A program made the position numbers and the translations under genes. The notes beneath the pieces were generated by a model that was not told where the DNA came from, ran no database searches, and saw only the letters and a list, made by a program, of their open reading frames with translations. Source: Gemmatimonadaceae bacterium (GTDB lineage Bacteria > Gemmatimonadota > Gemmatimonadetes > Gemmatimonadales > Gemmatimonadaceae). Taken from it: DNA of 64,000 nucleotides. Where the stretch lies: NCBI GenBank assembly GCA_013360595.1, contig JABWBJ010000001.1, positions 1 through 64,000 on the forward strand, read 5' to 3'. Shown here in pieces: positions 1 to 34,545 of this stretch (positions are counted from its first letter, which is position 1; each line of letters starts with the position of its first letter).

Positions 1-372
1 CGAACCCGGGAACGGCAGCGTCACCGAGAACCCGTCGCCGGCCCGCCGCGGGATCACGTGCACGTGATGGTGGAAGACGTCCTGTCCCGCCGCCGCCCCG
101 CTGCTCACGATCACGTTCAGCCCGTCCGCCCCGGCCAGCCGCTGGACGATCGGCGCCAGCCGCAGGGCCACGTCGAACAGGTGCCGGGCCAGCTCCGGCG
201 GCACGTCGCGCAGGGAGTCGAAATGCTCCCGCGGCACCACCAGCACGTGCCCCGCGTTCACCGGTTGCACGTCCATGAAGGCCAGCGCCTGCGCGTCCTC
301 GTAGCAGATCGAGACTTCGCCGCCACCATGGATCAGCTCACAGAAGATGCACGGCCGGTGGGATTCGCGCAT
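1..372 (-). CDS. HIT-family hydrolase, C-terminus cut by window edge
   Basis: Small histidine-triad protein, probably a nucleotide phosphoramidase or dinucleoside polyphosphate hydrolase acting in the cytoplasm. The ATG at 370-372 opens a frame that stays open to base 1 (124 codons visible). Residues 8-11 are CIFC, half of the zinc site common in bacterial HIT proteins. The triad HHHVHVI lies at residues 101-107 and fits the H-x-H-x-H-x-x rule. The middle contains the family sequence FMDVQPVNAGHVLVVPREH in slightly shortened form (residues 32-50). The gene diverges from the E1 gene at 626, so the 253-bp gap should hold both promoters. Family assignment is firm; the substrate is not known. Confidence 0.9.
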   Translation of the reverse strand, partial: MRESHRPCIFCELIHGGGEVSICYEDAQALAFMDVQPVNAGHVLVVPREHFDSLRDVPPELARHLFDVALRLAPIVQRLAGADGLNVIVSSGAAAGQDVFHHHVHVIPRRAGDGFSVTLPFPGS

Positions 373-625
373 ACGAACTCCGGTGCAGATGGCTGACTGC
401 CGATGGGACCGACGCTGGTCGTCGGACGAAGCACCACGTCGTACCGCATAAGCGGTGCCGCCGGTTCCGGGCGGAGCGGGCGTGACCGCGCCGGGAACCG
501 CCGATCCCGACCGTGCCGGAAAGTAACGGCGGCGCGACAGGTCCGTTGCGCGGACGCCGCGGGGGCGGCCGGCATGCCCGTCGCCGGCGTCCTCGACCGT
601 TGACCCGCCCCGCTATCTTTCGCCC

Positions 626-2737
<2,112 letters not shown>

Positions 2738-2759
2738 CGGGGTCCCCGGGGACACCCCG
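2738..2759 (+). terminator. Possible weak terminator after E1
   Basis: CGGGGT and ACCCCG form a 6-bp stem around a GC-rich 10-nt loop directly after the E1 stop codon. There is no T-run, so this is weak evidence. Confidence 0.3.
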
Positions 2760-3026
2760 TCCGGCGCCTTGACCGTGCCGGTACCGGCTCACCGCCGGAT
2801 GGTGACGGTGCCGCACCCTGCTTCAGGTCGCGCGACGTCGCCACACGGCGCCGCACGTCACGTCGCGCGCCGGCCTGGACCGTGTCCGAGGGCGCATCTG
2901 CTTCACACTGTTGGACTTGGAACGTCGTGGTGGTGGCGGTGTCGAGGGCCCGCGACATGTGGCCTGTCCCTTGCATCCACGAGGGTCGCGGCCAGCGACG
3001 GCCGGCCATGATCCGGGAGCTCATTC

Positions 3027-3197
3027 ATGATGGCCATCACGCACGATGAGGTCCGACGCCATCCACGCTGGAAGGCGGAGATGCAGACCCCGCTTCACTC
3101 GCCACGCAGCCAGCGGGTCAGTGGGGCTGGGCTGATTGCGCTCGTGGCGCTGCTGATCGTGTCGGTCGCGGCGGCCGTCCTCGCGGTTCGCGGATAG
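3027..3197 (+). CDS. Small single-pass membrane peptide (56 aa)
   Basis: This short reading frame starts with a double ATG (3027 and 3030), preceded by GGGAG about 8 nt upstream. It encodes 56 residues: a charged, His/Arg-rich N-terminal half (ITHDEVRRHPRWKAEM) and one hydrophobic C-terminal segment from about residue 33 to 54, ending VRG. The topology looks like a small inner-membrane peptide with a cytoplasmic N-terminus. A strong terminator hairpin follows 24 bp later, which supports a real transcription unit. I do not recognise a family and cannot assign a function. Confidence 0.55.
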   Translation: MMAITHDEVRRHPRWKAEMQTPLHSPRSQRVSGAGLIALVALLIVSVAAAVLAVRG

Positions 3198-3220
3198 CGA
3201 GTCCGGGCGTTCGGGCAAGA

Positions 3221-3252
3221 AGGCGCCGCCGGTCAGTTGACCGGCGGCGCCT
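3221..3252 (+). terminator. Strong intrinsic terminator hairpin
   Basis: Perfect inverted repeat: AGGCGCCGCCGGTCA, two bases, then TGACCGGCGGCGCCT. It forms a long GC-rich stem (about 14 bp with a 4-nt loop) followed by CGTGTTTC. It sits just after the small membrane peptide and before the next gene. The tail is only modestly T-rich. Confidence 0.75.
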
Positions 3253-3583
3253 CGTGTTTCCGGCCAGGTGTTCGTTCGCGGGAGTTCTTGGAGCGGCTGG
3301 TCGGTCATCGACCGGTGGCGGCGGCCGTCGCTTCGTCACTGCCGCCCTGAAACCCGGCGTCGAAGAACGTGACGCTCCGCCGAGTCCCTGTATTGACACT
3401 CCGGTTTCGAGGCCTTAGTCGTCGAACCGCACCCGTTGTCTGCGGGAAGGTGATTGAGGGCGGTCACCGACGCGCCCGGTCGGACGGCAGGAATCGATAC
3501 CAGGGCCGTATTCAATGATCCGAAGCAGCAGTCCTGCAGCAACAGGTACTGAGTACCGAGCTTCGTTTGTGCAGAACGAGGGA

Positions 3584-4717
3584 ATGGTACTCTTTGCCTT
3601 ACGCGGAGTTCGGGCAGGCGGGCTCGGCCTGCTCGCTGGGCTGCTCCTGGCGTGCTCGAAAGAACCTCCGACGCAGTCTCTGATCGACGCGTCCGGGCAG
3701 GCGACCTGGGTTGTGCCGTACACAGGGAAGGGTCGGGTCGTTGCGGCCGGCGATCTGGTCTTCTTCCCGGGCGACTTCCACGACGTCATCGCCGTAAGAA
3801 AGAACACTGGCGTCGTCGCGTGGCGCAGCCGGACGGCAATCCAGTCGCCCAACACGATTGGTTGGGGAGTAGCAGTCGCTGGCGATGTCGTAGTCTTGCC
3901 GGACGCCTATCTCCACGCCTTCGACCGCTCGACAGGGGCACTCCGGTGGACGTTCACAGGCGATGAAGGCGGCCTTCCGGCGCAGGCCGTTCCGGTCGGG
4001 AACAGCCAGCTCGTCTTCTCGGGATCCGGGAATGGCCTGGTTTACGGAATCCGTGCCGCCGATGGGGTTGAAGTGTGGCGTGCCGCGCCACCGTGGAACG
4101 ACGGGTACCTTGCGATGGACCCGACGCTGGCAGGCGACACGCTGTTTGTCGGTTACGCTGGATACCCGGGCTTGCGTGGAGGCATCGCAGCATTCCACGC
4201 CAGCACAGGCGCACTCATCTGGGCAAGGGACTTTACGCCGCTGGTTGGTCCCGGACAGGCGGCGCGGTGCCTCGGGAACGTCGTTGTCGATTCGGCGACC
4301 GTTTACGCGTCCACACAGATCGGCGATGTGATTGCGCTGGACAGGAATACCGGCCAAATCCGTTGGCAACGCCGGCCAACCGGCGGTGGACCGGCCAACA
4401 CCCGACAGCTCGCCATAGTCCGGCGTGTTCTCGTGGCCGCGACTCTGGAAGGACAGTGGCACGGGTTGGACGCGGCCACAGGCAACCTTCTTTGGTCCAC
4501 GGACGGGCAACTCGGCTCCATCATGAACCCCCTTGCTGCACATGACGGGCTGGTATACGCGGCGAGTGGCGTACTTGCCACTATCGACCCAGCGGACGGG
4601 TCAACGCGAATTCTCCTGAGGGGTAATGGCGCGAGCCTGAACCTGTTTGGAACGCCCGCCATCGACGACGAGCGGGTATACATCGGCGGGCAGAGTCTCT
4701 GGGCCGTGCGAAAGTAG
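3584..4717 (+). CDS. PQQ-repeat beta-propeller lipoprotein
   Basis: Exported lipoprotein of 377 residues with a signal peptide and lipobox ending GLLLAC, so the mature protein is anchored through Cys. The rest is made of PQQ-like/BamB-like blades, recognisable by repeated endings such as GVVAWRSRT, GALRWTFTG, GVEVWRAAP, GALIWARDF, GQIRWQRRP and GNLLWSTDG. Such propellers usually act as scaffolds or as quinoprotein-like domains. No PQQ-binding catalytic signature is evident, so a scaffold or binding role is more likely. The ATG at 3584 was chosen because it places the signal peptide directly at the N-terminus; an upstream ATG at 3515 would add 23 untypical residues. It stands alone between decayed sequence and the terminator at 3221. 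Confidence 0.75.
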   Translation: MVLFALRGVRAGGLGLLAGLLLACSKEPPTQSLIDASGQATWVVPYTGKGRVVAAGDLVFFPGDFHDVIAVRKNTGVVAWRSRTAIQSPNTIGWGVAVAGDVVVLPDAYLHAFDRSTGALRWTFTGDEGGLPAQAVPVGNSQLVFSGSGNGLVYGIRAADGVEVWRAAPPWNDGYLAMDPTLAGDTLFVGYAGYPGLRGGIAAFHASTGALIWARDFTPLVGPGQAARCLGNVVVDSATVYASTQIGDVIALDRNTGQIRWQRRPTGGGPANTRQLAIVRRVLVAATLEGQWHGLDAATGNLLWSTDGQLGSIMNPLAAHDGLVYAASGVLATIDPADGSTRILLRGNGASLNLFGTPAIDDERVYIGGQSLWAVRK

Positions 4718-4795
4718 GCGCCGAGACCGGTACGCCCTCCCGTTCTCGCGCTCTCCGGACCGTTGCCACAGGCAGCCGCCTCAGGTGATCAAGCC

Positions 4796-4938
4796 GCGAG
4801 AGCTGCGACCTTACTTGTTCATGATCGACATCATGTCGGTGACCTTGTAGCCGGCGGGGATCTCGAAGACCGACGCCTCGATGGGGCCCTGCCTGAACTC
4901 CTTCACCTCGGTGGTCGTGGTGCTGGTGTTCTTCCGCC
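4796..4938. repeat. Direct repeat copy A (3' end of DUF4412 gene)
   Basis: A 143-bp segment matching 7614-7756 in the same orientation with two mismatches counted by eye. Read on the minus strand it encodes the last part of a DUF4412 protein (VKEFRQGPIEASVFEIPAGY, then a short tail and stop). Here it is joined to an IS5-type transposase remnant instead of its own gene. Confidence 0.9.
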
Positions 4939-5268
4939 CGCCGCCGGATCGTCCGGGTCCCGCTTCTCGGGATCGCGCGGGAAGCTCTTCTGCCCCGCCC
5001 ACGCCTGGACCAACGTCCCATCCACGGTAAAGTGCTCGCTCGACAGCAAGTCGGCGTGGCGGGCCTCGGCCACCACGGCCCCGAAAAAGCCCTCGGCCAC
5101 GTCGCCGATCAACAGCCGCTGCCGGTTCTTCGTGAACACCGTCACATCCCAGACCGGATCGTCGACCCCGAGCCCCACGAACCACCGGAACAGCAGATTG
5201 TACTCGAGCTGCTCCATGAGCTGGCGCTCGCTCCGAATCGTGTACATGCTCCGAAGAGGCCGTGCCAC
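4939..5268 (-). pseudogene. IS5-type transposase remnant
   Basis: Minus-strand translation gives typical IS5/DUF772 N-terminal transposase sequence: YTIRSERQLMEQLEYNLLFR, FVGLGVDDPVWDVTVFTKNR and HFTVDGTLVQAWAGQKSF. About 100 residues of the family are present. The extreme N-terminus and the whole catalytic C-terminal half are missing, and the frame then runs into repeat copy A. No inverted terminal repeats could be identified. It is a dead fragment and shows that the locus has been hit by transposition. Confidence 0.8.
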
Positions 5269-5461
5269 GTTAGGCTTCCGCGCTCATTCCCGCAACCCGA
5301 TCTTCTCCACACTGTTTCCGCAGCCTGTGAGAGAAGAACAGCAAAGGAATTCAGAGAACCCACGACGAGCACAAACGGCTGAGTCCGCTTGCCAAGGATG
5401 GCCCTTGCTGGCGACTTCTCTTTTCTCGTATCGTTGACCACCTTCTTCAGGCAGGCCGACA

Positions 5462-5715
5462 ATGCTGCGGCGAAGGCGTATTCTCCTCGTTGGCGGTACC
5501 GCAACGATCGACGCTATCGGGGTGCGGCCGGCTCCTGCGGTCGCGGGCACGCCCAGTTGCGACCCCTGGTTCCCCCTGGGTGGGTCTTTCAGTTCACGGG
5601 CGGAGACATGGTCGGCTGCTACCGCTGGGGCCTGGAATACGGGACGTTCGACTGCTTTTCGAACACCCCGGCTGGAAGTGGGTGCGACGCCGACGGATGC
5701 TTCATTGGGTCTTGA
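5462..5715 (+). pseudogene. Decayed small Cys-containing secreted protein (tentative)
   Basis: One frame begins MLRRRRILLVGG and continues through a signal-peptide-like stretch to PSCDPW. Another frame downstream reads MVGCYRWGLEYGTFDCFSN, then GSGCDADGCFIGS and a stop at 5715. The two frames together resemble a small exported cysteine-containing protein interrupted by a frameshift. They sit 15 bp before the DsbA-like pseudogene, which would be a natural partner for a cysteine-rich substrate. No family is recognised; this reading is uncertain. Confidence 0.3.
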
Positions 5716-5730
5716 GGCGGCGAGTCAATC

Positions 5731-6361
5731 ATGTCGCGAAGGTGGGTCAGCTGGACTGTTGATGCGCTGTTGGTGGTAGCGATGCTCGGCGTGATCGCCT
5801 ATGTCGCGCGACAGCAGGTCCCCGGCGGTACACTTCGCCTGCCAGGGTCGGACTGGCGCGCCCTTGTTTCTGGCGGGGTGGACGTCGGCGCGAACAGCGG
5901 CAAGGTAGTGGTGGTTGAATTCGTCGATTCCAATGCCCGGTGTGCGCGAGGATGGAGCCGGTGACGGCTCAGCTGGATCAGAGATTCCCGAACTAGATCC
6001 GGCGTGTGATCCGCCACCTTCCCATCGAGACGATTCATCCGCAAGCCATGGCGTCCGCAACAGCCGTGGAGTGTGCGCGTGCGCAGGGAGCGGCACGGAA
6101 GATGCACGACCTCCTGTTCGCAGTTCAGGCATCCATGACGTCGCTTTCGTTCGATGCGCTGGGCCGTGTGGTTGGCGTTTCCGATCCAGGGCATTCTCGG
6201 CTTGCGTGAAGGGGCCGACACCTGACCGGATCAGGCGAGACATGGACCTGGCGAGCTCGATCGGCGGCTCCGGAACACCAACGGTCATTGTCGATGGCCT
6301 GTTGTTGACTTCGTTCAGTCCGGCGCTCCTGCTTTCGCTTGTGAAGTCGCGATTAGACTGA
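5731..6361 (+). pseudogene. DsbA-like thiol:disulfide oxidoreductase pseudogene
   Basis: Three pieces together make a recognisable exported thioredoxin-fold oxidoreductase. Frame one (from 5731) gives an N-terminal membrane anchor (VDALLVVAMLGVIAYVA) up to VVVEFVDSN. After a frameshift near 5931, frame two gives the active site CPVC (5934-5945) and ARMEPVTAQLDQRFPN. It then has an in-frame TAG at 5994, followed by VIRHLPIETIHPQAMASATA and more. A second frameshift near 6195 leads to frame three with SSIGGSGTPTVIVDGLLL, including the cis-Pro loop GTPT. Two frameshifts plus one stop make this a pseudogene rather than a single sequencing error. The ancestral protein would have oxidised or isomerised disulfides in the periplasm. 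Confidence 0.8.
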
Positions 6362-6385
6362 AATCGCCCCACGCCGGGTTCTCCG

Positions 6386-7171
6386 ATGAGATGGTGCGCT
6401 CTGCTGCTACTGCCAGCCCTGCGGTTGACTGTCGCCGGTGCTCAGATCCCGGCGACGGTTCGGATTGCCGGGATTGTGACCGATACCGCCGGGCGGGCGA
6501 TTCAGTTCGCGAACGTGACGGCGCTGCCTGGCGGTCGCAGGATCATCGCTGGCGCCGACGGCCGGTTCGACCTGCTCGTCGACCCCTCCGTGCGGGAAAT
6601 CGAAATCCGCCGGATCGGGTTCGAGCCCAGGATCGTTAGGGCTGACGCGTGGCCCGACAGTGTGCTGAGGATCTCGTTGGCCGCCCTCCCCGCGCAGCTC
6701 GCCAGGGTGCGTGTCGAGGCGGCGCAGCGCATCCAATCGCTCGTCACCCGCGGCTTCTATGAGCGCAAGGACCAGCTCGAGGATGGGATCAATCACGGCT
6801 TCATGGTCACCCCCGAGGAGATCGAGCAACGCAAGGGTGCGCGAGTGACCGACTTCCTGTTCGGCCACCACGCGATCAAGGTCGTGATGTTCCAGCCACC
6901 TTGGCCCTACGACAAGGTTCGCCCGGGTCTGCAACCTCAAGGGCTCAACGGGTGCCGGATGGAGATCTATGTCGACGGCCATCGCTTCTATCGCTCGCGG
7001 TGGCCGCCTGACCCTCGCATTGATCGCTTCTTGGGCGACGAGTACATCAATGACCAGATTGCGACCAGTAATATCGCCGCGATCGAAGTGTACCCGAGGG
7101 GCGTGGGGGCACCACCAAAGTACCAGCCTCTGAACGGAACCTGCGGGGTCATATTGATCTGGACGAAGTAG
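6386..7171 (+). CDS. Carboxypeptidase-regulatory/TonB-plug-like secreted protein
   Basis: A 261-residue exported protein with a signal peptide (ALLLLPALRLTVAGAQ). A carboxypeptidase-regulatory-like beta-sandwich follows (about 25-110: RIAGIVTDTAGRAIQFANVT, GRFDLLV, IRRIGFEPR). The C-terminal part resembles a TonB plug domain (about 140-261: VTPEEIEQRKGARVTDFLF, MEIYVDGHRF, IAAIEVYPRG). This two-domain layout without a barrel is common in Gemmatimonadota and supports the taxonomic guess. It may act at the cell surface with a TonB-dependent receptor; no substrate can be named. It starts 25 bp after the DsbA-like pseudogene. Confidence 0.75.
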   Translation: MRWCALLLLPALRLTVAGAQIPATVRIAGIVTDTAGRAIQFANVTALPGGRRIIAGADGRFDLLVDPSVREIEIRRIGFEPRIVRADAWPDSVLRISLAALPAQLARVRVEAAQRIQSLVTRGFYERKDQLEDGINHGFMVTPEEIEQRKGARVTDFLFGHHAIKVVMFQPPWPYDKVRPGLQPQGLNGCRMEIYVDGHRFYRSRWPPDPRIDRFLGDEYINDQIATSNIAAIEVYPRGVGAPPKYQPLNGTCGVILIWTK

Positions 7172-7232
7172 TCGGGCCGGCGCTCATCCCAGCCGAATCG
7201 CAACGGCTTGCGCACGGTGGCGCAACGACCGC

Positions 7233-7562
7233 ATGTCTCGTGCCCTTGTATCGCGTGCCAAGGCGAGTGGAGGCAACACCCCTGGTGCGCACGGCGCGGT
7301 GAGTGATCTGCCGGGGCAGCACGCCGCGGTCGCCGGCGCCCGCAAGCGGCTCTGCTCCATGCGGGAGCGGATTCTGGATCTCGTCCCCGCGGGCGAGGGC
7401 TACCTCACCGCACTGATTCATCAGCGGCCGCACACGAGGAAAGGGGATGTCGAGCGGCTCTTCGCCCTCCAGGAAGAACTGGGCGAGGAGCGCTTCCGCC
7501 TCGTGCTGCAGCGAAAGCAGGTGTGCCGAAGCCAGTACTCCCCAATCGGCATCTGCACTCTT
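7233..7562 (+). pseudogene. IS21-type transposase (IstA) C-terminal remnant
   Basis: Plus-strand translation contains LPGQHAAVAGARKRLCSMRE, ILDLVPAGEGYLTALIHQRP and RKGDVERLFALQEELGEERF. This resembles the helical C-terminal end of IS21-family IstA transposases. The catalytic part and any IstB partner are absent. The fragment ends where repeat copy B begins. The match is from memory of the family pattern, so the exact IS family is uncertain. Confidence 0.5.
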
Positions 7563-8388
7563 GGGCGCATTCCCGGAGAGCGGCCTCAGGCGGCTGTGCC
7601 CCGGGATGAAGCAGCGAGAGCTGCGACCTTACTTGTTCATCATCGACATCATGTCGTTGACCTTGTAGCCGGCGGGGATCTCGAAGACCGACGCCTCGAT
7701 GGGGCCCTGCCTGAACTCCTTCACCTCGGTGGTCGTGGTGCTGGTGTTCTTCCGCCAGCAGCGCCTTCATGCCGTCGCCGCCGAAGCCGGCGCCGGTCAG
7801 GCTCTGGGCGAAGTTCTTCGCGAAGGCCTCGAAGGCCTTCTGCTCGGGGGCCGGAACGTCGGCCACCCACAGCTCGGTGGTGTTGTCGATCGTTTGCGAC
7901 CGCTTGATGGGGCCGACGGACATCTTCAACCCGTACGCCTGCTTCATGGTGTACTTGCGGGTCCTGTAGCCGAGCAGATCCTCGCCGGCGCCGTCGTCAG
8001 AGACCGAGACCACGACGTCGCTGACCTCCATCTTCATCATGCCGGCGGCTCCGATCGCGCCGAGCATGGACGCCATGCCGCCCACGGGGAGGATGGTGAC
8101 GGTCTTCTCGCGGGGCGAGACCATCTTCAGGATCGCCGAGTCCGCGTTGAGCAGCATGTAGCCATCGCGCGGCATGCCCTGGGGCGCCTTCACCCAGTCG
8201 ACGCGGACGTTCGCTCCGGCGAGGCGCACCTGCATGGTCGTTTCGCCAACGCTGCGATCGGTGGACTTCGTGGTCGAGGTGAACGACCAGCCGTCGACGA
8301 CCGGGCGGGCGGCGGGCGAGGCAGCAAGTCCGGCGACGAGCAGCGCCGGGATGGCGGCGAGGCGATAGCCTGGGTGAGACAGAGTCAT
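7405..8388 (-). CDS. DUF4412 exported protein with shifted 3' end
   Basis: Periplasmic DUF4412-type protein of unknown function: signal peptide (IPALLVAGLAASPAARP) and a beta-rich body up to about residue 213. The conserved C-terminal sequence EFRQGPIEASVFEIPAGY is still encoded but in another frame, starting near 7755, with its natural stop (TAA) at 7629-7631. In the open frame the protein instead runs into an artificial tail (HQHHDHRGEGVQ and beyond) to 7405, crossing the IS21 remnant. A single extra base near GGCGGAAGAAC would explain this. Either the gene has a natural +1 slip or loss, or the sequence has an error. Copy A of the same 3' end at 4796-4938 carries the normal frame. Confidence 0.7.
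   Translation of the reverse strand: MTLSHPGYRLAAIPALLVAGLAASPAARPVVDGWSFTSTTKSTDRSVGETTMQVRLAGANVRVDWVKAPQGMPRDGYMLLNADSAILKMVSPREKTVTILPVGGMASMLGAIGAAGMMKMEVSDVVVSVSDDGAGEDLLGYRTRKYTMKQAYGLKMSVGPIKRSQTIDNTTELWVADVPAPEQKAFEAFAKNFAQSLTGAGFGGDGMKALLAEEHQHHDHRGEGVQAGPHRGVGLRDPRRLQGQRHDVDDEQVRSQLSLLHPGAQPPEAALRECAQECRCRLGSTGFGTPAFAAARGGSAPRPVLPGGRRAARHPLSSCAAADESVR
7614..7756. repeat. Direct repeat copy B (in place in DUF4412 gene)
   Basis: The second 143-bp copy, at its native position as the 3' end of the DUF4412 gene. Differences from copy A are at the GATGAACAAG and TCAACGAC positions near the stop codon (one base each). The copies are 2818 bp apart in direct orientation. Confidence 0.9.
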
Positions 8389-8502
8389 GAGTTCGATCCT
8401 CCGAATGTGGCGGAATCCAGCCGCTGGAAGCTACGACATCCCGTCAGCCCCGACCACACCCCCGAATCCCGGACGAGGATGGCGGGCTCCTCTCCGGTTC
8501 GC

Positions 8503-10179
8503 CTATTGCCGCTCAAAGACGGTCCGGCCGCCGACCACGGTCATGATGATGCGGGCGTCGCGAATGGCCTCGGGCGCGATGGCGGTGAGGTCGCGGTCAA
8601 TGAGCACGAGATCGGCCAGCATCCCTCGGCTGAGCCTGCCCTTCCGGTCTTCCTCGAAGGAGGCGAGGGCGGCCCCGCTGGTGTACGCCCGCAACGCTTC
8701 CTCGACCGTGATCTTCTGCTCCGGGACCCAGCCGCGGGGGTGGCGATCATCGAGCGTGCGCCGCGTGACGGCGGCGTAGATGCCCTCGAGCGGCGTGGGC
8801 GGGGCGACGAACCAGTCGCTGCCGAAGGCGAGCGTGGCCCCGCTGTCGAGCAGGGAGCGGAACGCGTAGGTGCCTTTCGCCCGTTCCGGTCCGATCACCT
8901 TGTCGGCCCAGCGGCCGTCGTCGATGGCGTGGTATGGCTGCATGCTCGCGATCACGCCCTGCGCGGCGAAGCGCGGGATGTCGGCCGGCGCGATGTGCTG
9001 CGCGTGCTCGATGCGGAAGCGCCGGTCGCGCGGCCCGTTCCCGGTCGCCACGCGCTGGTAGGTGTCGAGGAGCGCGCGGATGGCCCGGTCGCCGATCGCG
9101 TGGATCATCACGTGGAGCCCGGCCTGGTCCGCCCCCGACGTCCAGCGATAGAGGTCCTCGGGGGTATTCACGAACAGGCCGCGATCGTTCGGCGCGTCGG
9201 TGAACGGCTCCAGCATGGCCGCGGTGTGCGATCCCAGCGACCCGTCCACGAAGCCCTTGAGGCCGCCGATCCGGAGCCACTCGTCACCCCTGCCACGCGC
9301 CTGGACCGTGTCGCGCAGGCGCTCCCAGGTGGAGAGTGGAACCGCGGCGTAGATCCTGGTGCGAAGGCGTCCCGCGGCGCGCGCCCGTTCGAAGATCGCG
9401 ACGTCAGACCACGAGCCCATGTTGTGCACCGACGTCACGCCGTTCGACGCAACGTAGGTCATCGCGGTATCGAGGGCGCGGTCCTCGAGCGCCGCCGGCG
9501 GGTCTGGAACGACCCTCGCGACGAGGGACTGCGCGTTGTCCTTGAGGATCCCGGTCGGTTCGCCGCCGCCCGCGCGTACGATCGCGCCACCCGCCACTTC
9601 CCGCGTCGCACGGTTGACCCCGGCCAGCCTGAGCGCCAGCGAGTTGGCGAGCGCCATGTGGCCGTCGAGGCGGTTCACCCACACCGGATGCTCGGGGGTG
9701 ACCGAGTCGATCCAGGAGCGTTCGGGCAACGCGCCGCCCCACTGCTCATGGTCCCAGTCGCCGCCGGTGATCCAGGTGCCGGCCGGGACCGTGGCGGCGA
9801 ACTCCCGGATCCGGCGCGTGAACGCTTCGGGCGTGCGCGCGTCGCGGAGTTGCACCGACGACAGCCGGAATCCGCCGGTGACGAAATGGACGTGCGAATC
9901 GATGAAGCCCGGCGCCACCATGCCGCCCCGGGCGTCGATCACCCGCTCCGCGCCGAGCTTCCGGATCTCCGCCGAGGACCCGACCGCGAGGATGGTGTCG
10001 CCGCTGATGGCGACGGCATCGGCCCAGGGGCGGGTGGAGTCGCCGGTCCAGACGCGCGCGTTGACGATCGCGAGCGAGGGGGCCGGGGTCGCGTTCATGT
10101 CGCAGGCGGTGACGAGGGCGACACCGAGGGCAGCGGGCAGCGGGCAGCGGAGGGTGAACAGGCCGCGCGCGGGTCGCAT
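8503..10179 (-). CDS. Amidohydrolase lipoprotein (YtcJ-like)
   Basis: Metal-dependent hydrolase of the amidohydrolase superfamily, amidohydrolase_3/YtcJ type, 558 residues. The N-terminus looks like a lipoprotein signal (AALGVALVTAC), so it is probably tethered in the periplasm. Metal-binding motifs are visible: GFIDSHVHFVTGG near residue 95, HMIHAIGDRAIR near 350, RIEHAQHI near 390 and AFGSDWFV near 455. LAIVNARVWTGDSTRPWADA at the start is the typical small beta-domain. Substrates of this family are varied amides or imides and cannot be predicted here. It stands alone on the minus strand, 6 bp downstream of a short hypothetical gene. Confidence 0.85.
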   Translation of the reverse strand: MRPARGLFTLRCPLPAALGVALVTACDMNATPAPSLAIVNARVWTGDSTRPWADAVAISGDTILAVGSSAEIRKLGAERVIDARGGMVAPGFIDSHVHFVTGGFRLSSVQLRDARTPEAFTRRIREFAATVPAGTWITGGDWDHEQWGGALPERSWIDSVTPEHPVWVNRLDGHMALANSLALRLAGVNRATREVAGGAIVRAGGGEPTGILKDNAQSLVARVVPDPPAALEDRALDTAMTYVASNGVTSVHNMGSWSDVAIFERARAAGRLRTRIYAAVPLSTWERLRDTVQARGRGDEWLRIGGLKGFVDGSLGSHTAAMLEPFTDAPNDRGLFVNTPEDLYRWTSGADQAGLHVMIHAIGDRAIRALLDTYQRVATGNGPRDRRFRIEHAQHIAPADIPRFAAQGVIASMQPYHAIDDGRWADKVIGPERAKGTYAFRSLLDSGATLAFGSDWFVAPPTPLEGIYAAVTRRTLDDRHPRGWVPEQKITVEEALRAYTSGAALASFEEDRKGRLSRGMLADLVLIDRDLTAIAPEAIRDARIIMTVVGGRTVFERQ

Positions 10180-10185
10180 CCCGGG

Positions 10186-10368
10186 TTACCGGTTGCGCTC
10201 GATCGCATCCCTCACGTCGAGCAGGATCTCGAAGTAGAGCTGCTCGCGGCGGTAGGCGAAGTCGAGGGAGACCATCTGGGCGTCGTCGCCGGTGGCCTTG
10301 GCGCGTTCAAAGGCCTCACGGTACATCTCGTCCAGGTTGGCGAGGATCCGTTCGCGGGAGCGTGGCAT
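10186..10368 (-). CDS. Short helical hypothetical protein (60 aa)
   Basis: A 60-residue, highly charged helical protein (MPRSRERILANLDEMYREAF, then ERAKATGDDAQMVSLDFAYR). The ATG at 10368 is preceded by AGAGAGA at Shine-Dalgarno distance, whereas the longer option starting at 10509 has none. The longer form would also share its start codon bases with the divergent HNH gene. It lies 6 bp upstream of the amidohydrolase and may be co-transcribed with it. No known family recognised. Confidence 0.55.
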   Translation of the reverse strand: MPRSRERILANLDEMYREAFERAKATGDDAQMVSLDFAYRREQLYFEILLDVRDAIERNR

Positions 10369-10507
10369 GCGCGTTCTCTCTATGGCGCGAGGGGTGAGTC
10401 GCGGTAACTCTTCAGCGGGGTCCGGGCGCGGGTCGCGGTCGACCGCGTCGAGCAGGAACTTGCGCGCGGCCCCGAACACCAGGCGACGAGGGCTGAGGGG
10501 ACCTGTC

Positions 10508-10882
10508 ATGCAGCGGGACGATATCTTCGCGCGCGATGGCTACCGGTGCGTGTTCTGCGGGCAGGTCTTCCCGGCGGAAGAGCTGACGGTCGATCACCTG
10601 CAGGCGCGCTCGCGCGGGGGTGACCGGTCGGGTGGCAACTTAGTGACCGCCTGCGGGGGCTGCAACGCGCGCAAGGGCCGCCAGCCTCTCGCGCGGTTCC
10701 TGGCCGCCGAGCCCGAGACGTACACGAACTTCAGGCGGCACGCGGTGCACGCGTGGAAACGGCACGTGCAGGCGGTCGAGGAGGAAGTGAGAAGAATGGC
10801 GCAGAGTGTTGAGCGCGGGGCGCAGCGGAAGGGTGTCAGAGCCGGTGAAAGACAGCCTCCTCCACCGGGCAATCGCCCTTGA
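10508..10882 (+). CDS. HNH endonuclease domain protein
   Basis: A 124-residue HNH nuclease-fold protein. The zinc and catalytic elements are clear: RDGYRCVFCGQVFPAEEL, TVDHLQARSRGG (catalytic DH) and GGNLVTACGGCNARKGRQPL. Two CxxC pairs frame the catalytic motif. The C-terminal third is basic and disordered. Start ATG at 10508 follows GAGGGGA. Stand-alone HNH proteins of this type are common chromosomal genes with unknown cellular role. The 3' end overlaps the convergent ferredoxin gene by 47 bp. Confidence 0.8.
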   Translation: MQRDDIFARDGYRCVFCGQVFPAEELTVDHLQARSRGGDRSGGNLVTACGGCNARKGRQPLARFLAAEPETYTNFRRHAVHAWKRHVQAVEEEVRRMAQSVERGAQRKGVRAGERQPPPPGNRP

Positions 10883-11162
10883 GGTGCTCGACCACGATCC
10901 GCTCGAGAAGCTCAGGCGTCACCCCCGCGTACCACACGCCCTCCGGGTACACCACGACGATCGGGCCGCCCGCACAGACGCCGAGGCAGGGTGTTTCACC
11001 GCGCTTCACCCGGCCGGGACCGAAGAGGAGCCCTTCCCGTTCGAGCAGCGACGCCAGGAGCGCATAGAGACCGCGGCCGCGCCGGTCGGGTGAGCAGAAG
11101 CTCCCGGTGCAGACGAGGACGTGCCGCCGGTACGGCTCCATGAAAGGCTCGACAACCGGCAT
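10836..11162 (-). CDS. Thioredoxin-like [2Fe-2S] ferredoxin
   Basis: A 108-residue thioredoxin-fold ferredoxin. The four ligands are visible: Cys in VLVCTGSFCSP and in TPCLGVCAGGP. The fold ends with VVVYPEGVWYAGVTPELLER, a hallmark of the (2Fe-2S) ferredoxin-domain family related to NuoE C-terminal domains. It probably acts as a small cytoplasmic electron carrier. ATG at 11162 is used; a second Met seven residues later is possible. Converges on the HNH gene. Confidence 0.85.
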   Translation of the reverse strand: MPVVEPFMEPYRRHVLVCTGSFCSPDRRGRGLYALLASLLEREGLLFGPGRVKRGETPCLGVCAGGPIVVVYPEGVWYAGVTPELLERIVVEHLKGDCPVEEAVFHRL

Positions 11163-11247
11163 CGGCAGAGGCGGCGTGCGTTACACGGCAATGGGGGAAC
11201 GTCGGAGAGCCTGCTAGCTTATGCGAGGCAAGCTACCACGGGGATCC

Positions 11248-11691
11248 ATGAGCGTCACACGGGAATACCAGGCGGCCGGGAAGAAGCGGATCAACCACAT
11301 CGTCGCCCACTGGGTCGAGGGCGAGGCGTTCGACGTCGGCCAGCCGGGCCAGGCCACGGTGCGGATCGACGGCACGCGCCTGACCGGTCCCGGCCCGGTG
11401 GACATGCTGCTCTGCGCCCTCGCCACCTGCTCGTCCATGGACGTGGTCTCCATCCTGGCCAAGCGCCGCACACCGGTGGCCACGCTCGACATCGACGTGC
11501 GGGGCGAACGCGCGAACGCCATCCCGGCGAAACTGACGTCCATCGCGATGATCTACCGCATCACGGGCGAGGGGATCGACCGTGAGTCGGCTGAACGGGC
11601 GATCGATCTCGCGCTCAACAAGTACTGCTCCGTGCGCGACTCGCTGGATCCGGCCATCCCGATCGAATGGACGCTGGTGCTGAATGAGTGA
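11248..11691 (+). CDS. OsmC-family peroxidase-like protein
   Basis: A 147-residue OsmC/Ohr-type protein, probably a thiol-dependent reductase of organic hydroperoxides in the cytoplasm. The two family cysteines are present: LLCALATCSSMDVVSILAKR for the first region and NKYCSVRDSL for the second. The ATG at 11248 (MSVTREYQ) gives the normal family length; an ATG at 11221 would add nine residues. Its neighbours (ferredoxin, metal ATPase stump) do not suggest an operon. Confidence 0.85.
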   Translation: MSVTREYQAAGKKRINHIVAHWVEGEAFDVGQPGQATVRIDGTRLTGPGPVDMLLCALATCSSMDVVSILAKRRTPVATLDIDVRGERANAIPAKLTSIAMIYRITGEGIDRESAERAIDLALNKYCSVRDSLDPAIPIEWTLVLNE

Positions 11692-11706
11692 GGCGTGGGG
11701 GCGACG

Positions 11707-12240
11707 CTAGATCCTGGCCCGACGCAACAGCTGGGCATTGATGGCCACGATCACCGTGCTGGCGGACATGAGCACGGCGCCGACGGCCGGGGGGAGCAGG
11801 AGACCGACCGGAGCGAGCGCGCCCGCCGCCAGCGGGATGGCGACGACGTTGTAGCCGGCCGCCCACCAGAGATTCTGGACCATCTTGCGGTACGTCGCGC
11901 GGCTGAGCGCGATGATCCGCGGCACGTCGCGCGGATCGTTGCGCACCAGGATCACGTCGCCCGCCTCCACCGCCACGTCGGTCCCGGCGCCGATCGCGAT
12001 GCCGACGTCGGCATTCAGCAGCGCCGGTGCGTCGTTGACGCCGTCGCCCACCATCGCCACGCGCTTGCCGCGCTGGCGAACCGCGTCGATCCGGGCCGCC
12101 TTGTCCCCGGGGAGCACCTCCGCCAGCACAACGTCGATCCCGAGGTCGCGGCCGACGGCGTCGGCCACCGCTCTGGAGTCGCCCGTCATCATGATCACTT
12201 CGACGCCCATGTCGTGCAGCCGGCCGACCGCGGGGGGTGG
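11707..12240 (-). pseudogene. C-terminal stump of metal P1B-type ATPase
   Basis: Only the last quarter of a heavy-metal-translocating P-type ATPase is left: the P-domain end ([40 protein letters not shown]) and the last two membrane segments ([37 protein letters not shown]). The phosphorylation site, the metal-binding transmembrane CPx motif and the N-terminus are missing. The open frame upstream to 12432 does not look like the family. It is closest in pattern to the intact ATPase at 51223-53763. It sits just outside the proposed island boundary at 12.6 kb. Confidence 0.8.
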
Positions 12241-12607
12241 CCGTCGACCCCGCGCACCGGGATCCCGGCGGTTTTCAGGGCGCCGCTCGCGGTTTCGCGG
12301 CGGATGTCGGTGGCCTGCTGGATGCGCCGGAGCCAGCCCAGTCGCCCCAACGCCAGAACCTGCTGCAGTCTGTGGTCGCTCAGGACGTTGCTCATCAGCG
12401 GCGAAGGACCACACGATTCCCGCCCGTGTCAACGTCTCGACTCGCTTTCCGTGGTGGCCGGTTTCAGCCGTCCCATCAATGGCCGGTTGGCGTGTCCGCT
12501 GAGGGAAATCAACGCTGAAGCGGCCGCGAACGGATCCGGAACAAGAACGCCCGGACCCGTTCGGATCCAGGCGCTTCCAAGTGCTTCACACTGCGGTACT
12601 TCCAAAG
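12241..12607. other. Non-coding, decayed stretch
   Basis: No convincing gene. Several short overlapping frames exist on both strands but none resembles a protein family. It separates the ATPase stump from the tRNA fragment and probably contains lost upstream parts of the ATPase gene. Confidence 0.5.
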
Positions 12608-12650
12608 AGCGGGCGACCGGACTCGAACCGGCGACGTCCAGCTTGGGAAG
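12608..12650 (-). other. 3' half of tRNA-Gly(CCC); putative att site
   Basis: On the minus strand this reads as the 3' half of a tRNA-Gly: anticodon loop with CCC (12647-12645), the variable region, a T-arm with loop TTCGAGT, and the acceptor strand CGCCCGC plus discriminator T. The matching 5' half (acceptor GCGGGCG, D-arm) is not found to the right, where homology stops after 12650. No functional tRNA can form. Such 3' halves are left when a tyrosine-recombinase element integrates into a tRNA gene. The truncated side faces right, so the element should lie to the right, with the intact tRNA-Gly at its far end outside the window. Confidence 0.7.
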
Positions 12651-12892
12651 GAGGCCGAGAACCAAGGGCTGAGTGAGGTACGCGACACGCGATGGCCGGT
12701 CGGGCGCGCGCCTACCATCTGTCGTACATTTCGGGTTCGAGCGGATCCGGGCCGCCCTCGGTGGCTTGTACCGCTGCCGCCCGCGCGTGTCAGGGTGAGG
12801 ATCGCTACGGTGTCGGCAGGCCAGCATGAGCTGATACTCTGCACGCAAGCCAAGGTGAGGCGTCGGCAACCGCCGTACCAGACGCCGTTCGG

Positions 12893-13429
12893 CTACATGC
12901 GCACCGCGTACACCGCCACGTTACCCTCGCGTGTGAAGGACAGCACCTCATAGCGCTCGTGGCCGATGTCCATACCGGGTGCGCTCTGCGGCATGCCCGG
13001 CACGGCGAGGCCGCGTATCTCCGGACGCTCTCGGAGGACGCGAGCCACCAGGTCCGCGGGAACGTGGCCCTCGAAGACGTAGGCATCCACCTGGCTCGTG
13101 TGGCAGGAGTACAGCTCCGCGGGCACACCGAGGTTGCGCTTGGCCTCGGTGGCGTCCGGCACGTCGCGGACGTTTACCTCGAATCCGCTGGCTCGCATAT
13201 GGGCGATCCATTTGCCGCAGCATTCGCACGTCGGCGATCTGTAAGCCGTGAGGGCGCCGCGTTCAGCACCTAATGAGCGGCGCTGCCAGACTGCACCGCC
13301 CAGTGCCACAAGAGCCACGCCCCCGGCGGCGCTTCCGATGAAGGTGCGCCTCGACATGCGGGGGCGGGACACCTCGGCGCGATCGTCCGCGCCGACGCCC
13401 GTGTTCTTCTTCTTTCGCAGCCTGCTCAT
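12893..13429 (-). CDS. DUF411 metal-binding protein of Cu efflux operon
   Basis: DUF411 protein of 178 residues, often found with copper or other metal resistance genes and thought to bind metal in the periplasm. It has a twin-arginine-type signal (MSRRTFIGSAAGGVALVALG), and the probable metal site SPTCECCGKWIAHM contains three cysteines. YSCHTSQVDAY carries a further Cys-His pair. The start at 13429 is preceded by AAGGAGGAAACTC, an excellent ribosome-binding site, and overlaps the cusA stop in ATGA. It is the last gene of the operon cusC-cusB-cusA-DUF411. Confidence 0.85.
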   Translation of the reverse strand: MSRLRKKKNTGVGADDRAEVSRPRMSRRTFIGSAAGGVALVALGGAVWQRRSLGAERGALTAYRSPTCECCGKWIAHMRASGFEVNVRDVPDATEAKRNLGVPAELYSCHTSQVDAYVFEGHVPADLVARVLRERPEIRGLAVPGMPQSAPGMDIGHERYEVLSFTREGNVAVYAVRM

Positions 13430-19798: not shown

Positions 19799-20302
19799 CT
19801 ACGCCCGCGGCGGTGGGGGTTCGGGCGCGGTGGGTCGTCGCAACTCGTGCTGCGCGACCAGGAAGGTCGCGGTTGCCGTCAGGTGGAGCTTTGGCGGAGC
19901 CGCCTGCTCAGCGAGAACTGCCGCTACCGCGCACGCCGACATCAGGTTGCACGGTTCGTCGCCCGGCGAGGCCGGACACGAGTCATGCGAGACGAGGGCG
20001 CAACGCGATGGCAGCTCCTGGAACGGCCCATCGTGATCCGACGAGCCGTCCATCATTTCATGGCTCATCGCCATTGTGCCGCTCTCGATTGCTGCTGGGT
20101 GACCTGCCACGCAGGCGAGAGCCCTCTCGATTCCGAGCACCTGCAGAAGCCCCAACGCGGCCGCCAGTGCGGCGCCGCGTCGGAACGATGGAGGTGCGCG
20201 GTGGAGGAGTCGGAGCACGATAGACGAAATGCGGATTGCCAAAGATACCTGGATCTGACGAAGGGACGCTACGTGTGCCTTTGCAGGCATATCAATCGGC
20301 AA
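19799..20302 (-). CDS. Secreted Met/Cys/His-containing protein, first gene of Cu operon
   Basis: A 167-residue frame whose second quarter is a hydrophobic export signal (GAALAAALGLLQVLGIERAL). The mature part carries possible metal ligands: AMSHEMMDGSSDHDG, SRCALVSHDSCPASPGDEPC and MSACAVA. It ends PTAPEPPPPRA. The true start is uncertain; a GTG further inside would put the signal at the N-terminus. It lies 119 bp upstream of cusC in the same direction and divergent from the response regulator, so it is probably the first gene of the copper operon. No family recognised; a copper-binding role is inferred only from context and composition. Confidence 0.5.
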   Translation of the reverse strand: MPIDMPAKAHVASLRQIQVSLAIRISSIVLRLLHRAPPSFRRGAALAAALGLLQVLGIERALACVAGHPAAIESGTMAMSHEMMDGSSDHDGPFQELPSRCALVSHDSCPASPGDEPCNLMSACAVAAVLAEQAAPPKLHLTATATFLVAQHELRRPTAPEPPPPRA

Positions 20303-20471
20303 CCCGCGAAGACTGCTGTAGGGGAATGCCCGACAGCGGGCTCCACAATACCGACCACTTTGGAGTCAGTGATACGCCGATTCCCCCAGCCGCCGAAGGG
20401 GCCGCAATTGGAGTCGTGGTATCAACCGCGCGACAACCATCTTGCCGATCCAGCGCCACAGGGGAAGAGCC
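20303..20471. promoter_or_regulatory. Divergent control region of Cu operon and two-component system
   Basis: A 169-bp intergenic region between divergent units: the efflux operon to the left and the response regulator/kinase to the right. Promoters for both must be here or just inside the left gene. I could not identify a convincing repeat that would be the regulator box. Confidence 0.4.
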
Positions 20472-21158
20472 ATGACTGAATCAGCCGGACACATCCTGGT
20501 GGTGGACGACGACCCCACGGTCACGAGCGTGCTCAAGCGCGGGCTCGCGTACGAAGGCTTCAGCGTCGACACGGCAAACTCGGGGGCTCAGGCCTTCGCG
20601 ATCGCGCGCGATCACGCTCCGGATCTGGCTATCCTCGACGTTATGCTCCCCGGAGCAGACGGCTATGAGGTGTTGGCCCGGCTGCGCGCGGCGGATTCGG
20701 AGTTGCCGGTGCTCATGTTGACGGCGCGAGATGCCGCTTCCGATCAGGTGAAAGGACTCGAGAGAGGCGCCGACGATTACGTCGTCAAGCCGTTCACGTT
20801 CGCGGTGCTGGTCGCCCGCGTGAAAGCGCTCCTGAGGCGCCGGGAGATCGACCACCCGGCTGTGCTGCATTTTGCGGATCTGACCCTGGATACGGGGACC
20901 CGGAGGGCCAGGCGCGGCGAACGCGACGTCGATCTCACGTCGACCGAATACGAGCTCCTCCATCAGTTCATGCTGCATCGCAAGCGGGTGCTCCCGAAGC
21001 ACTTCCTCATGGAACGCGTCTGGGGCTACGACTTCGAAGGGAGCTCGAACGTCGTCGAAGTCTACGTCAAGCAGCTTCGACAGAAACTGGAGCGGGATGG
21101 GGAGCCGCGCCTGATCCACACGTTCCGCGGTGCCGGCTACGTGCTGCGCGAGGCCTGA
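20472..21158 (+). CDS. OmpR/PhoB-type response regulator (CusR-like)
   Basis: A 228-residue DNA-binding response regulator. The receiver domain has acidic VDDDP, phospho-acceptor Asp in LAILDVMLPGADGYEV (about residue 56), Thr in MLTARD and Lys in VVKPFTF. The C-terminal winged helix has LTSTEYELLHQFMLHRKRVL and YVKQLRQKLERDG. It starts at the ATG after GGGGAAGAGCC. With the kinase 12 bp downstream and the efflux operon divergent, it most likely senses envelope copper or silver and activates the cus genes. The metal is inferred from context. Confidence 0.92.
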   Translation: MTESAGHILVVDDDPTVTSVLKRGLAYEGFSVDTANSGAQAFAIARDHAPDLAILDVMLPGADGYEVLARLRAADSELPVLMLTARDAASDQVKGLERGADDYVVKPFTFAVLVARVKALLRRREIDHPAVLHFADLTLDTGTRRARRGERDVDLTSTEYELLHQFMLHRKRVLPKHFLMERVWGYDFEGSSNVVEVYVKQLRQKLERDGEPRLIHTFRGAGYVLREA

Positions 21159-21170
21159 CGCCCCGGCGCG

Positions 21171-22589
21171 ATGTCGCTCCGGCTGCGACTTGCGCTGTGG
21201 TACGGCGGGCTGACGACGGGAGTGGTCGCTCTGGTCTGCGCCTACAGTTACGCGGTGCATGGCCGCACGCACTACGACGAGCTCGACGGAGTGCTCCGGG
21301 CCATGGCCAATCATGTGGTCGAGGAGCTGGAGGCGGCGCCGACCACCGATGCCCGGGTCGGCATCCTGAATGCCTCGCAGCTTCTCGGCGCCGGCTTTCG
21401 TGTCCACGATTCGCGTGGCGCGCTGTTGGGACAGTCCTCATTCGCGGAAGCGTCACCTCGCGCGGAACCACTCTCGGTCCAGCAGGCGGCCCCCGTGCGG
21501 CCGTATCCCTGGATCGGAGTCCTTGCTCCGGGTCTGCATAACGCAACCGGCAGCCGGGGGACATTCGGCGTGGCGCGAGGGCCGGACGGAAGCCGCTGGC
21601 GGGTTTATGTCGTCCCGATGCGCGGTGGCAACGAGCTGCTCACGGCACTCCTGCCGCTCCGTCACATCGACGCGACCATCTCGCAGTTCGGACGGTTGAT
21701 GCTCCTGATGGCCATCATCGGCGGTCTCGTGACGTTCGTGTCCGGTTGGGTGCTTGCGCGGCGCGCACTCCGACCCGTCGCAACCCTCACATCGACCGCC
21801 GGGGCGATTGCACAATCCCGAACGTTCTCACGGCGCGTGCCGCTGCCGCGCGAACGGGACGAACTCGGCGTGCTCGCGGCCACGTTCAATGAGATGCTGG
21901 CCAGTCTCGACGACGCCTATCAGGCGCAGGCCCGATTCGTGTCGGCGGCGTCTCATGAAATGCGCGCTCCGCTCACCGTGATTCAGGCCAATCTGGAACT
22001 GCTGCACGGGAGGGCCGAGCATCTCACAGAGCACGATCGCGGTCATGCCATCCGCGAGGCCTGGCAGGAAACCTCCCGGCTCTCGCGACTGGTCGCCGAC
22101 CTACTGAGTCTTGCCCGCGCTGACGCGGGAGTGCCGCTGCGGCGCGAAGCAGTCGAGCTCGACCGCGTGCTGCTGACCGTGATCGGCGAGGCGCGGCATC
22201 TCGCGCAGGGCCAGCGCTTCGAGATTTCCGAGCTGGCGCCAACGATTGTCACGGGCGATCCCGATCGGTTGAAGCAGTTGTTCCTCAACCTGGTCGACAA
22301 CGCAATCAAGTATACGCCGCCGACCGGACGGATCTCGGCGAGCCTCCGGGCGGCGGGCGGCTACGCCGAAGTCGTCATACGCGACACCGGCATCGGCATC
22401 GCCAGCGCCGACCTGCCGCACGTGTTCGAGCGATTCTATCGCGCCGAGCCGGCTCGCTCGCGCGATCCGGGAGGAACGGGGCTCGGTCTGCCGATCGCGC
22501 GCTGGATCGCCGACCAGCATGGCGGCACGATCGAGCTGGCGAGTGTCGCGGGGCACGGCGTGACGGCGGTCGTTCGCCTGCCGCTCTGA
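21171..22589 (+). CDS. Sensor histidine kinase (CusS-like)
   Basis: Membrane sensor kinase of 472 residues. TM1 (LALWYGGLTTGVVALVCAYS), a periplasmic loop of about 140 residues, TM2 (LMLLMAIIGGLVTFVSGWVL), HAMP linker, then the phosphorylation helix SAASHEMRAPLTVIQANLEL. The catalytic ATP-binding domain shows NLVDNAIKYTPP, DTGIGIA and GGTGLGLPIARWIADQHGG. It has no obvious Met/His-rich metal site in the loop, so the signal may be indirect. It forms an operon with the response regulator. Confidence 0.9.
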   Translation: MSLRLRLALWYGGLTTGVVALVCAYSYAVHGRTHYDELDGVLRAMANHVVEELEAAPTTDARVGILNASQLLGAGFRVHDSRGALLGQSSFAEASPRAEPLSVQQAAPVRPYPWIGVLAPGLHNATGSRGTFGVARGPDGSRWRVYVVPMRGGNELLTALLPLRHIDATISQFGRLMLLMAIIGGLVTFVSGWVLARRALRPVATLTSTAGAIAQSRTFSRRVPLPRERDELGVLAATFNEMLASLDDAYQAQARFVSAASHEMRAPLTVIQANLELLHGRAEHLTEHDRGHAIREAWQETSRLSRLVADLLSLARADAGVPLRREAVELDRVLLTVIGEARHLAQGQRFEISELAPTIVTGDPDRLKQLFLNLVDNAIKYTPPTGRISASLRAAGGYAEVVIRDTGIGIASADLPHVFERFYRAEPARSRDPGGTGLGLPIARWIADQHGGTIELASVAGHGVTAVVRLPL

Positions 22590-22702
22590 GCGTCGGAGCG
22601 GTTGGCCCATTGCGGCCGCTCGAGGCAACGTCGTTGCTCTTTCCAGGCTCATGTCTCCCTCAGCAAGGCCTCAGGTGATGTGGCCAGACTCTCCGCACAC
22701 AC

Positions 22703-23593
22703 ATGATGAGCCGATTCGAGACACGCACGACGCGCCGGCCGTACTCCCCTGCGAGCCTGGGGCGGCTCGGCGTCCATGTGCTGCTCGGTGCGATCGTCGG
22801 TACTCTGGTCCTGCATCCGCTGACGAAGGCCATCTACGGCACGGGCTCGCTGACACCGGCACTGGTGGTCGCGCAGCTCCGGAGCGCATTCGGCGCACGA
22901 ATGCTGCCGATGACTGGCGCGTTCGCGCTCCTTGGCGCGGCGCTCGGTCTCGGGTTCGGCATGTATCACCGCCTGCTGGCCAGACACACGCGCGTCGTCG
23001 GCTTCCTCGAAGCGGAGCTGGCGCGAAGCGTGACATCGCTGGTGGCGGCGGGCGAGAGCGAGGACGTGGAGTTCAAGGCGTCGGCGCGCTGGGATTTCGA
23101 TCGCGACAGTGTCAACCGCGAGCTGGAACACGGGGTCGTGCGCACCATCGCCGGCCTCCAGAACCACACCGGCGGCAGCCTGCTGCTGGGGGTCGACGAC
23201 GCGGGGATCATCCGGGGCCTCCAGCGCGACTACCAGACGCTGCGCCGCTCCGATCGTGACGGTTACGAACGATTCCTCACGGAGCTGGTTCGCACGCGGC
23301 TGGGCGGCGACGTCTGCCCACTGGTCCACGTGACGTTCCATCGTGTCGGCGACCACGAGATCTGCCGTGTCATTGTCGAGCCCTCCTCGCGTCCAGTCTA
23401 CATCGAGGATCACGGCACATACCGTTTCATGCTCCGAACCGGGAACAGCACGCGCGAGCTCGACGTGCGGGAAGCGACCGAGTACATCCCGCGGCGCTTC
23501 GGGACCACCGCGCACAACGCAACGGGCACGAAGCCGAGAGAGCAACTCTCGCGCTCCATTCTGCAACACCCTTCATCACGAGGATCACTCTGA
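22703..23593 (+). CDS. Membrane-anchored Schlafen/AlbA_2-domain protein
   Basis: A 296-residue protein with two N-terminal membrane segments (LGVHVLLGAIVGTLVLHPL and MTGAFALLGAALGLGFGMYH). A cytoplasmic Schlafen AlbA_2 domain follows: GESEDVEFKASARWDFDR, RTIAGLQNHTGGSLLLGVDD and GIIRGLQRDYQTLRRSD. AlbA_2 domains bind or cleave nucleic acids in other proteins, but the membrane form here is of unknown role. It sits 114 bp after the kinase and just before the Met-rich protein, inside the copper locus. A role in metal-stress signalling is possible but not shown. Confidence 0.75.
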   Translation: MMSRFETRTTRRPYSPASLGRLGVHVLLGAIVGTLVLHPLTKAIYGTGSLTPALVVAQLRSAFGARMLPMTGAFALLGAALGLGFGMYHRLLARHTRVVGFLEAELARSVTSLVAAGESEDVEFKASARWDFDRDSVNRELEHGVVRTIAGLQNHTGGSLLLGVDDAGIIRGLQRDYQTLRRSDRDGYERFLTELVRTRLGGDVCPLVHVTFHRVGDHEICRVIVEPSSRPVYIEDHGTYRFMLRTGNSTRELDVREATEYIPRRFGTTAHNATGTKPREQLSRSILQHPSSRGSL

Positions 23594-23594
23594 C

Positions 23595-24080
23595 ATGCGA
23601 CTCAACACACGACACCTCATGGCGATGACCGGCCTCGCGCTCTCGGTCGCCATGACCGGCATGCAGGCTCAGGATCGTGGCATGATGGCAGGACATTCCC
23701 AGGACATGATGCAACGCCAGATGGGCCAGATGCAGGACATGATGCAGCGCATGGGCACCATGATGCAGCGCGCGCAGCAGATGTCCCAGCAGATCACCGA
23801 GCACATGCAGCACAGAGCCAGCGGTCCTCTGGCGGATCAGCACCGGATGATGCAGCAGATGAGCACGCACATGTCGGCCATGTCCGAGCAGGCCCGGCAC
23901 ATGATGGAGCAGGTGAAGGCGATGACGAATAACGACGCGATGATGCAGAATCGGGAGATGCAGCGGGACATGGACGAGATGCACAAGCAGCTCGGCACCA
24001 TGACCACTTCGATGGAGAAGATGATGCAGTCCATGGAGCGGATGTCGAAGCGGCTCGGCATTCCTCCCACCAAGCCATGA
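23595..24080 (+). CDS. Methionine-rich periplasmic protein
   Basis: A 161-residue exported protein with signal peptide (LMAMTGLALSVAMTGMQAQ) and a very Met/Gln/His-rich helical body. Repeats such as QDMMQRQMGQMQDMMQRMGT and MEKMMQSMERMSKRLGI make roughly a fifth of the residues methionine. Thioether-rich proteins like this bind Cu(I) or Ag(I). It lies in the copper locus and its stop overlaps the next gene in ATGA, so both are co-expressed. Role inferred: periplasmic copper buffering or delivery to the efflux pump. Confidence 0.75.
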   Translation: MRLNTRHLMAMTGLALSVAMTGMQAQDRGMMAGHSQDMMQRQMGQMQDMMQRMGTMMQRAQQMSQQITEHMQHRASGPLADQHRMMQQMSTHMSAMSEQARHMMEQVKAMTNNDAMMQNREMQRDMDEMHKQLGTMTTSMEKMMQSMERMSKRLGIPPTKP

Positions 24081-24925: not shown

Positions 24926-24949
24926 GGACGGCCCACAACGTGTACGAGA

Positions 24950-34526: not shown

Positions 34527-34545
34527 GCTTGCGCGAGTTCTGTTC

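Follow-up and report, generated by a model that had tools for sequence, protein, structure and literature searches.

Does the 3' half of a tRNA-Gly(CCC) gene, lying within a copper (cus) operon of a Gemmatimonadaceae bacterium, mark the edge of a genomic island? The window, that is, the whole stretch of 64,000 nucleotides analysed here, belongs to contig C267 (70,875 bases) of a draft genome (G000; 3.07 Mb, 568 contigs, 72% complete), and the half occupies 12608..12650 on the minus strand. An earlier note on this DNA had taken the half for the boundary of a possible island of at least 51 kb, starting at 12.65 kb and reaching past 64 kb. We find that it is probably a displaced attachment-site relic of an element using tRNA-Gly(CCC), scarred by an IS21-type insertion sequence in the copper locus.

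Read on the minus strand, 12650-12608 (CTTCCCAAGCTGGACGTCGCCGGTTCGAGTCCGGTCGCCCGCT) comprises the anticodon loop, variable region, T-arm, acceptor 3' strand and discriminator. An exact copy of these 43 bases occurs in the same genome (G000:C32:2504-2546) within an intact tRNA-Gly(CCC) gene, in a cluster of eight tRNAs. This is the only intact tRNA-Gly(CCC) gene found in the draft, and it is on a different contig from the window. Identity between the two extends over 45 bases (12606-12650) and ends exactly at the start of the anticodon loop. A chance origin of the half is excluded, and the fragment is best regarded as a true att-type 3' tRNA fragment, with its break at the anticodon loop as in integrase attachment-site fragments. 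The 43-mer was retrieved from 86 stretches of the public genome collection, nearly all from Gemmatimonadota and mostly within intact tRNA-Gly genes. No match was found among viral contigs, and the single match in phages (86%) was a phage tRNA-Gly. ARAGORN detected no tRNA over the whole window, and an Rfam scan reported neither the half nor any other credible RNA. The earlier note was right that the half is real, as the exact match to the genome's own intact gene confirms, and that no matching 5' half lies to its right, the 13 loose matches in the window to a typical tRNA 5' end being at chance level (15 expected). It was also right that the window contains no integrase, none being found among its Pfam-scanned genes.

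The surroundings of the half were compared with G001, a genome of the same genus. On the left (1..11694), a conserved flank that encodes an E1 dehydrogenase, an amidohydrolase, OsmC and others contains blocks collinear with G001:C8:150625-157989 at 76-84% DNA identity. On the right lies the minus-strand cus operon, which ends with a DUF411 gene (12893..13429) and includes cusA (13426-16788), cusB (16795-18273) and cusC (18270-19757), all three of which have orthologues at the same locus in G001. From right to left, the minus strand thus reads cusC, cusB, cusA, DUF411, a spacer, the tRNA half, a hairpin, an IS21 end and an ATPase fragment. Contig C8 of G001 carries, in the same order and orientation as the window, the left flank, a complete copper ATPase gene, cusABC, a SnoaL-like gene and copCD. 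The differences near the half are confined to 12232-12892 (about 660 bp) and the DUF411 gene, which G001 lacks. The ATPase gene directly follows cusA in G011 and G040 (cusCBA-ATPase order), and the cusA-DUF411 order is the same in G026, G025 and G012. Phylogenetic trees pair the window with G001 for cusA (support 94/96), cusB (99/97), cusC (97/99) and the ATPase C-terminus (100/99). From this collinearity and tree pairing it follows that the half is flanked left and right by an ancestral locus. The idea that cusABC-DUF411 is a foreign block was rejected on the same three cus trees; by identity, the window cusA is slightly nearer to G026 (79%) than to G001 (78%). No sharp change in DNA composition was seen in the region.

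These flanks bear directly on the possibility of a single integrative island with its distal attachment site at the half. The half is of the true att type and its orientation is compatible with such an island, resistance and energy genes lie to its right, integration at tRNA-Gly(CCC) is proven and genes of the copper-ATPase type occur near tRNA-Gly in two relatives. Against this, cusABC directly to the right of the half is orthologous to and collinear with G001, and collinearity with G001 returns at 70.1-70.9 kb of C267. The intact tRNA-Gly(CCC) and integrase that had been expected to the right of 64 kb were not found through the contig end at 70.9 kb, nor does an integrase stand beside the intact gene on C32, which has nrfHA on its 3' side (2.5 kb examined). 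No empty site, at which the window's left flank would directly follow tRNA-Gly, was found in relatives either: that flank was absent from the DNA downstream of all 95 intact tRNA-Gly loci compared (400 kb in total), and in G022, assembled as a single contig, the cus locus is about 0.9 Mb from tRNA-Gly. An island bounded by the window half is therefore very unlikely; the reading falls short of exclusion because C32 and C267 are unlinked contigs.

The only matches downstream of the 95 tRNA-Gly loci were distant ATPase paralogues, two-component genes and, where one contig ends (L077), a CusA-like fragment. Copper cargo at tRNA-Gly is possible, given this CusA-like fragment and the copper-ATPase relatives in L060 and L241. 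The genome's own intact tRNA-Gly is immediately followed by cytochrome c genes of the NrfH/NrfA type (L089, 414-2400), named from sequence reading; the other tRNA-Gly loci examined showed none downstream. Matches to PF00589 in the same genome comprised two Xer-like genes, one beside hslVU and one beside fab genes, and a Phage_integrase gene on C451 with no detectable tie to tRNA-Gly.

A second difference from relatives lies farther to the right. G001, G011 and G022 lack a segment of about 50 kb, of which 20300..64000 falls in the window: their SnoaL-like gene is about 0.8-2.3 kb from cusC. A SnoaL-like homologue is near the cus genes in G004 as well. On C267, the SnoaL-like gene is found at 70126-70596, about 50 kb from cusC. 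The segment spans about 20.3-70.1 kb of the contig, with an approximate left edge that rests on the weak similarity (29% at the amino acid level) of a small ORF upstream of cusC. At its right edge is the N-terminal remnant of an IS21-type istA (C267 69721-70104; L090 6721-7104), about 51% identical to plasmid IS21 transposases and distinct from the remnant at 12.2-12.5 kb, and no tRNA gene, tRNA fragment or integrase was found there up to the contig end at 70.9 kb. This insertion appears to be an event separate from the tRNA half, with no sign of tRNA-Gly use. Its genes, associated with energy, stress and metals, include those for PPDK, pyruvate:ferredoxin oxidoreductase (PFOR), a thymidine phosphorylase-type enzyme, FtsH, a copper ATPase, cytochrome b and GH57. 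PFOR is absent in G001, and among the family members checked only G006 has it (87% amino acid identity), with the neighbouring genes in scrambled order. We do not claim a 19-of-21-base direct repeat (20163-20183 / 70073-70093) as an edge repeat of the insertion, since one of 195 random pairs matches equally and the repeat falls inside the istA remnant.

What, then, was scarred at 12232-12892? On the left is an IS21-type remnant (12232..12504, minus strand), with a left terminal repeat from 12504 and an istA start codon at 12395 followed by about 50 codons. It is truncated after about 270 bp and switches to the ATPase gene at 12231; the terminal repeat and IstA start of an IS21 element are thus present, while a complete istA-istB pair and both ends are absent. 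The remnant shares 69% DNA identity over 261 bp with a complete istA-istB element in L246 (L065), and the istA fragment is 67% identical to its IstA at the amino acid level. The L246 element (1-2731) has the Pfam domains rve and IstB_IS21 and inverted terminal repeats, and it stops about 0.2 kb short of a tRNA-Gly 3' half, just as the related fragment is found near the window half. G022 carries a full-length copy showing the ends of the IS, with an IstA 92% identical to that of L246. The identification rests on these two elements: Pfam returned no domain for the 52-aa istA fragment, and tblastn of the fragment against plasmids gave no match. Next to the remnant, the P-type (copper) ATPase is reduced to a C-terminal fragment (11710..12231, minus strand), which keeps residues 529-697 of 702, numbered on the intact ATPase of G001. 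Residues 1-528 are lost exactly at the position of the IS21 end and the tRNA half. Between the half and the DUF411 gene lies a 242-bp spacer (12651..12892) with no convincing open frame and no match in the same genome or the compared loci.

The half is followed on the minus strand by a terminator-like hairpin (12546..12575), with a 13-bp stem and then TTCTTGTT, placed like the terminators after tRNA-Gly copies in relatives; the IS21 end is 42 bp beyond it. In relatives, extra halves have a breakpoint identical or close to that of the window half, and a hairpin comes after most of them. The nine bases after the window half (ctttggaag) are common to the intact genes of L003 and others. We considered them as the original downstream flank of the tRNA and dropped this, because the flanks of most copies differ while following the same design. 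The half and hairpin could also have been retained as a putative transcription terminator of the cus operon. They sit downstream of cusCBA-DUF411 on the coding strand, and the hairpin (12575-12546) has a T-rich tail, as would suit this role. Yet its fold is unexceptional against shuffles (z = -1.45) and a consensus terminator scanner reported nothing at this position, so that we regard such retention as improbable.

Taken as a displaced attachment-site relic, the half suggests the following course of events. The attP of an integrative element using tRNA-Gly(CCC), or of a small cassette flanked by such halves, would have included the 3' half together with a replacement terminator. A piece of this DNA, of which at most about 660 bp is left, would have landed in the chromosomal cus operon, with the DUF411 gene on one side and the ATPase gene on the other. 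Insertion of an IS21-type element just past the terminator may have followed, and an IS21-associated deletion could then have taken away what remained of the integrated DNA, the greater part of the IS and ATPase residues 1-528, about three quarters of that gene from its start. The half, the hairpin, the IS21 end, the truncated ATPase and the orthology of both flanks are seen directly in the sequences; we infer the integrase-type element as bringer of the half, the order of events and the IS-driven deletion. As no integrase, partner half or recognisable element gene remains adjoining the half, integrase action at this very spot is likewise deduced. The partner site may be unassembled in a draft of this fragmentation and completeness. 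If the half and hairpin keep the attP order, the body of the element would have lain to the left, opposite to the direction given in the earlier note.

Alternatively, the half was never site-specifically integrated here, and the 3' flank of a tRNA-Gly gene (half, terminator and IS21) was moved by IS21-linked or homologous recombination. The short distance between hairpin and IS21 end, the truncated IS at the breakpoint and the position of the complete related element of L065/L246 relative to its tRNA-Gly half are all consistent with such a transfer. The downstream flank of the genome's own intact tRNA-Gly differs from the scar, however, as does that of G001, and no complete copy of the scar's IS was found in the same genome; we consider this transfer unlikely, if a serious alternative. 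An assembly chimera at the 45-base repeat, which is exact within a draft genome of 568 contigs, would be another source of the arrangement. In G001, however, the ATPase and cusABC adjoin as the fragment and cusABC do here, and a random mis-join would not recreate this order. The sequence left of the anticodon loop also differs from that of the intact gene, so that a second half would be needed anyway. With the genes at the join ordered as in G001, a chimera is highly unlikely.

The relic reading gains context from other Gemmatimonadota, in which genome comparison shows tRNA-Gly(CCC) to be an integration hotspot. Of the 45 loci searched, a set with four duplicates and many loci picked because a half had already been seen, 16 have multiple copies of the 3' part of tRNA-Gly. 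The clearest case is a 13.3-kb element in G070 (G070:C3:590666-604056; L237 2674-16056), in which the intact tRNA-Gly(CCC) is followed by an integrase, other genes and, at the opposite end, a 3' half. The integrase (455 aa) contains PF00589 and an Arm-DNA-binding domain and is encoded beside the intact tRNA. The L237 element also encodes an AAA_25 (RepA-like) ATPase. In G008, a half lies about 0.2 kb from an integrase related to that of G070 (42% identical). Of the earlier note's reading, the att-type nature of the fragment and the use of tRNA-Gly(CCC) as an integration target in the phylum are supported, and an island bounded by the window half is not.

Short half-bounded segments (0.9-7.5 kb) were also detected, carrying HipA, DUF6036, HicB-like or FtsX-type genes (HicB-like by eye), and no integrase domain was matched on those of their contigs that were checked. 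Segments of this kind in L239, L241, L243 and L244 have toxin-antitoxin-like or single-permease cargo. More speculatively, and with little probability in our view, tRNA-Gly(CCC) of Gemmatimonadota might host a cassette system of short integrase-less segments, often toxin-antitoxin-like, each with a half and its own terminator and moved by integrases in trans, the window being an off-target landing in a copper operon. A limited, non-exhaustive literature search retrieved no description of a tRNA-Gly(CCC) hotspot in Gemmatimonadota, which is documented here. The locus also illustrates that a perfect tRNA half alone does not prove an island boundary: synteny within the genus placed the edge about 8 kb away from where it had been supposed and told two unrelated events apart.

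Comparison with known systems places the window half more precisely. Islander maps tRNA-integrated genomic islands and lists anticodon-loop crossover among its site classes (PMC4383910). As in those islands, the 3' tDNA fragment of the window is identical to an intact tDNA, with its crossover at the anticodon loop. It reaches the 3' end of a tDNA that stands on another contig of the draft. In contrast to those islands, no integrase was found in the interval examined, and the DNA next to the fragment is, relative to relatives, the ancestral locus (collinear cusABC) instead of foreign DNA, with no tie to the tRNA locus. Compared with insertion sequences of the IS21 family, the remnant keeps a recognisable left terminal repeat and istA start but stops after about 270 bp, without istB. 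The G070 element uses the same tRNA, and beyond its comparable 3' half the flanking chromosome resumes; it retains its integrase and body, whereas the window retains only the half and hairpin. Given these other halves and elements at tRNA-Gly(CCC) in relatives, a half as such is to be expected, and only the position of the window half is surprising: the short integrase-less segments of L238, L239, L241, L243 and L244 have the same half and are found in tandem, at the tRNA gene or beside it, whereas the window copy lies in a copper operon.
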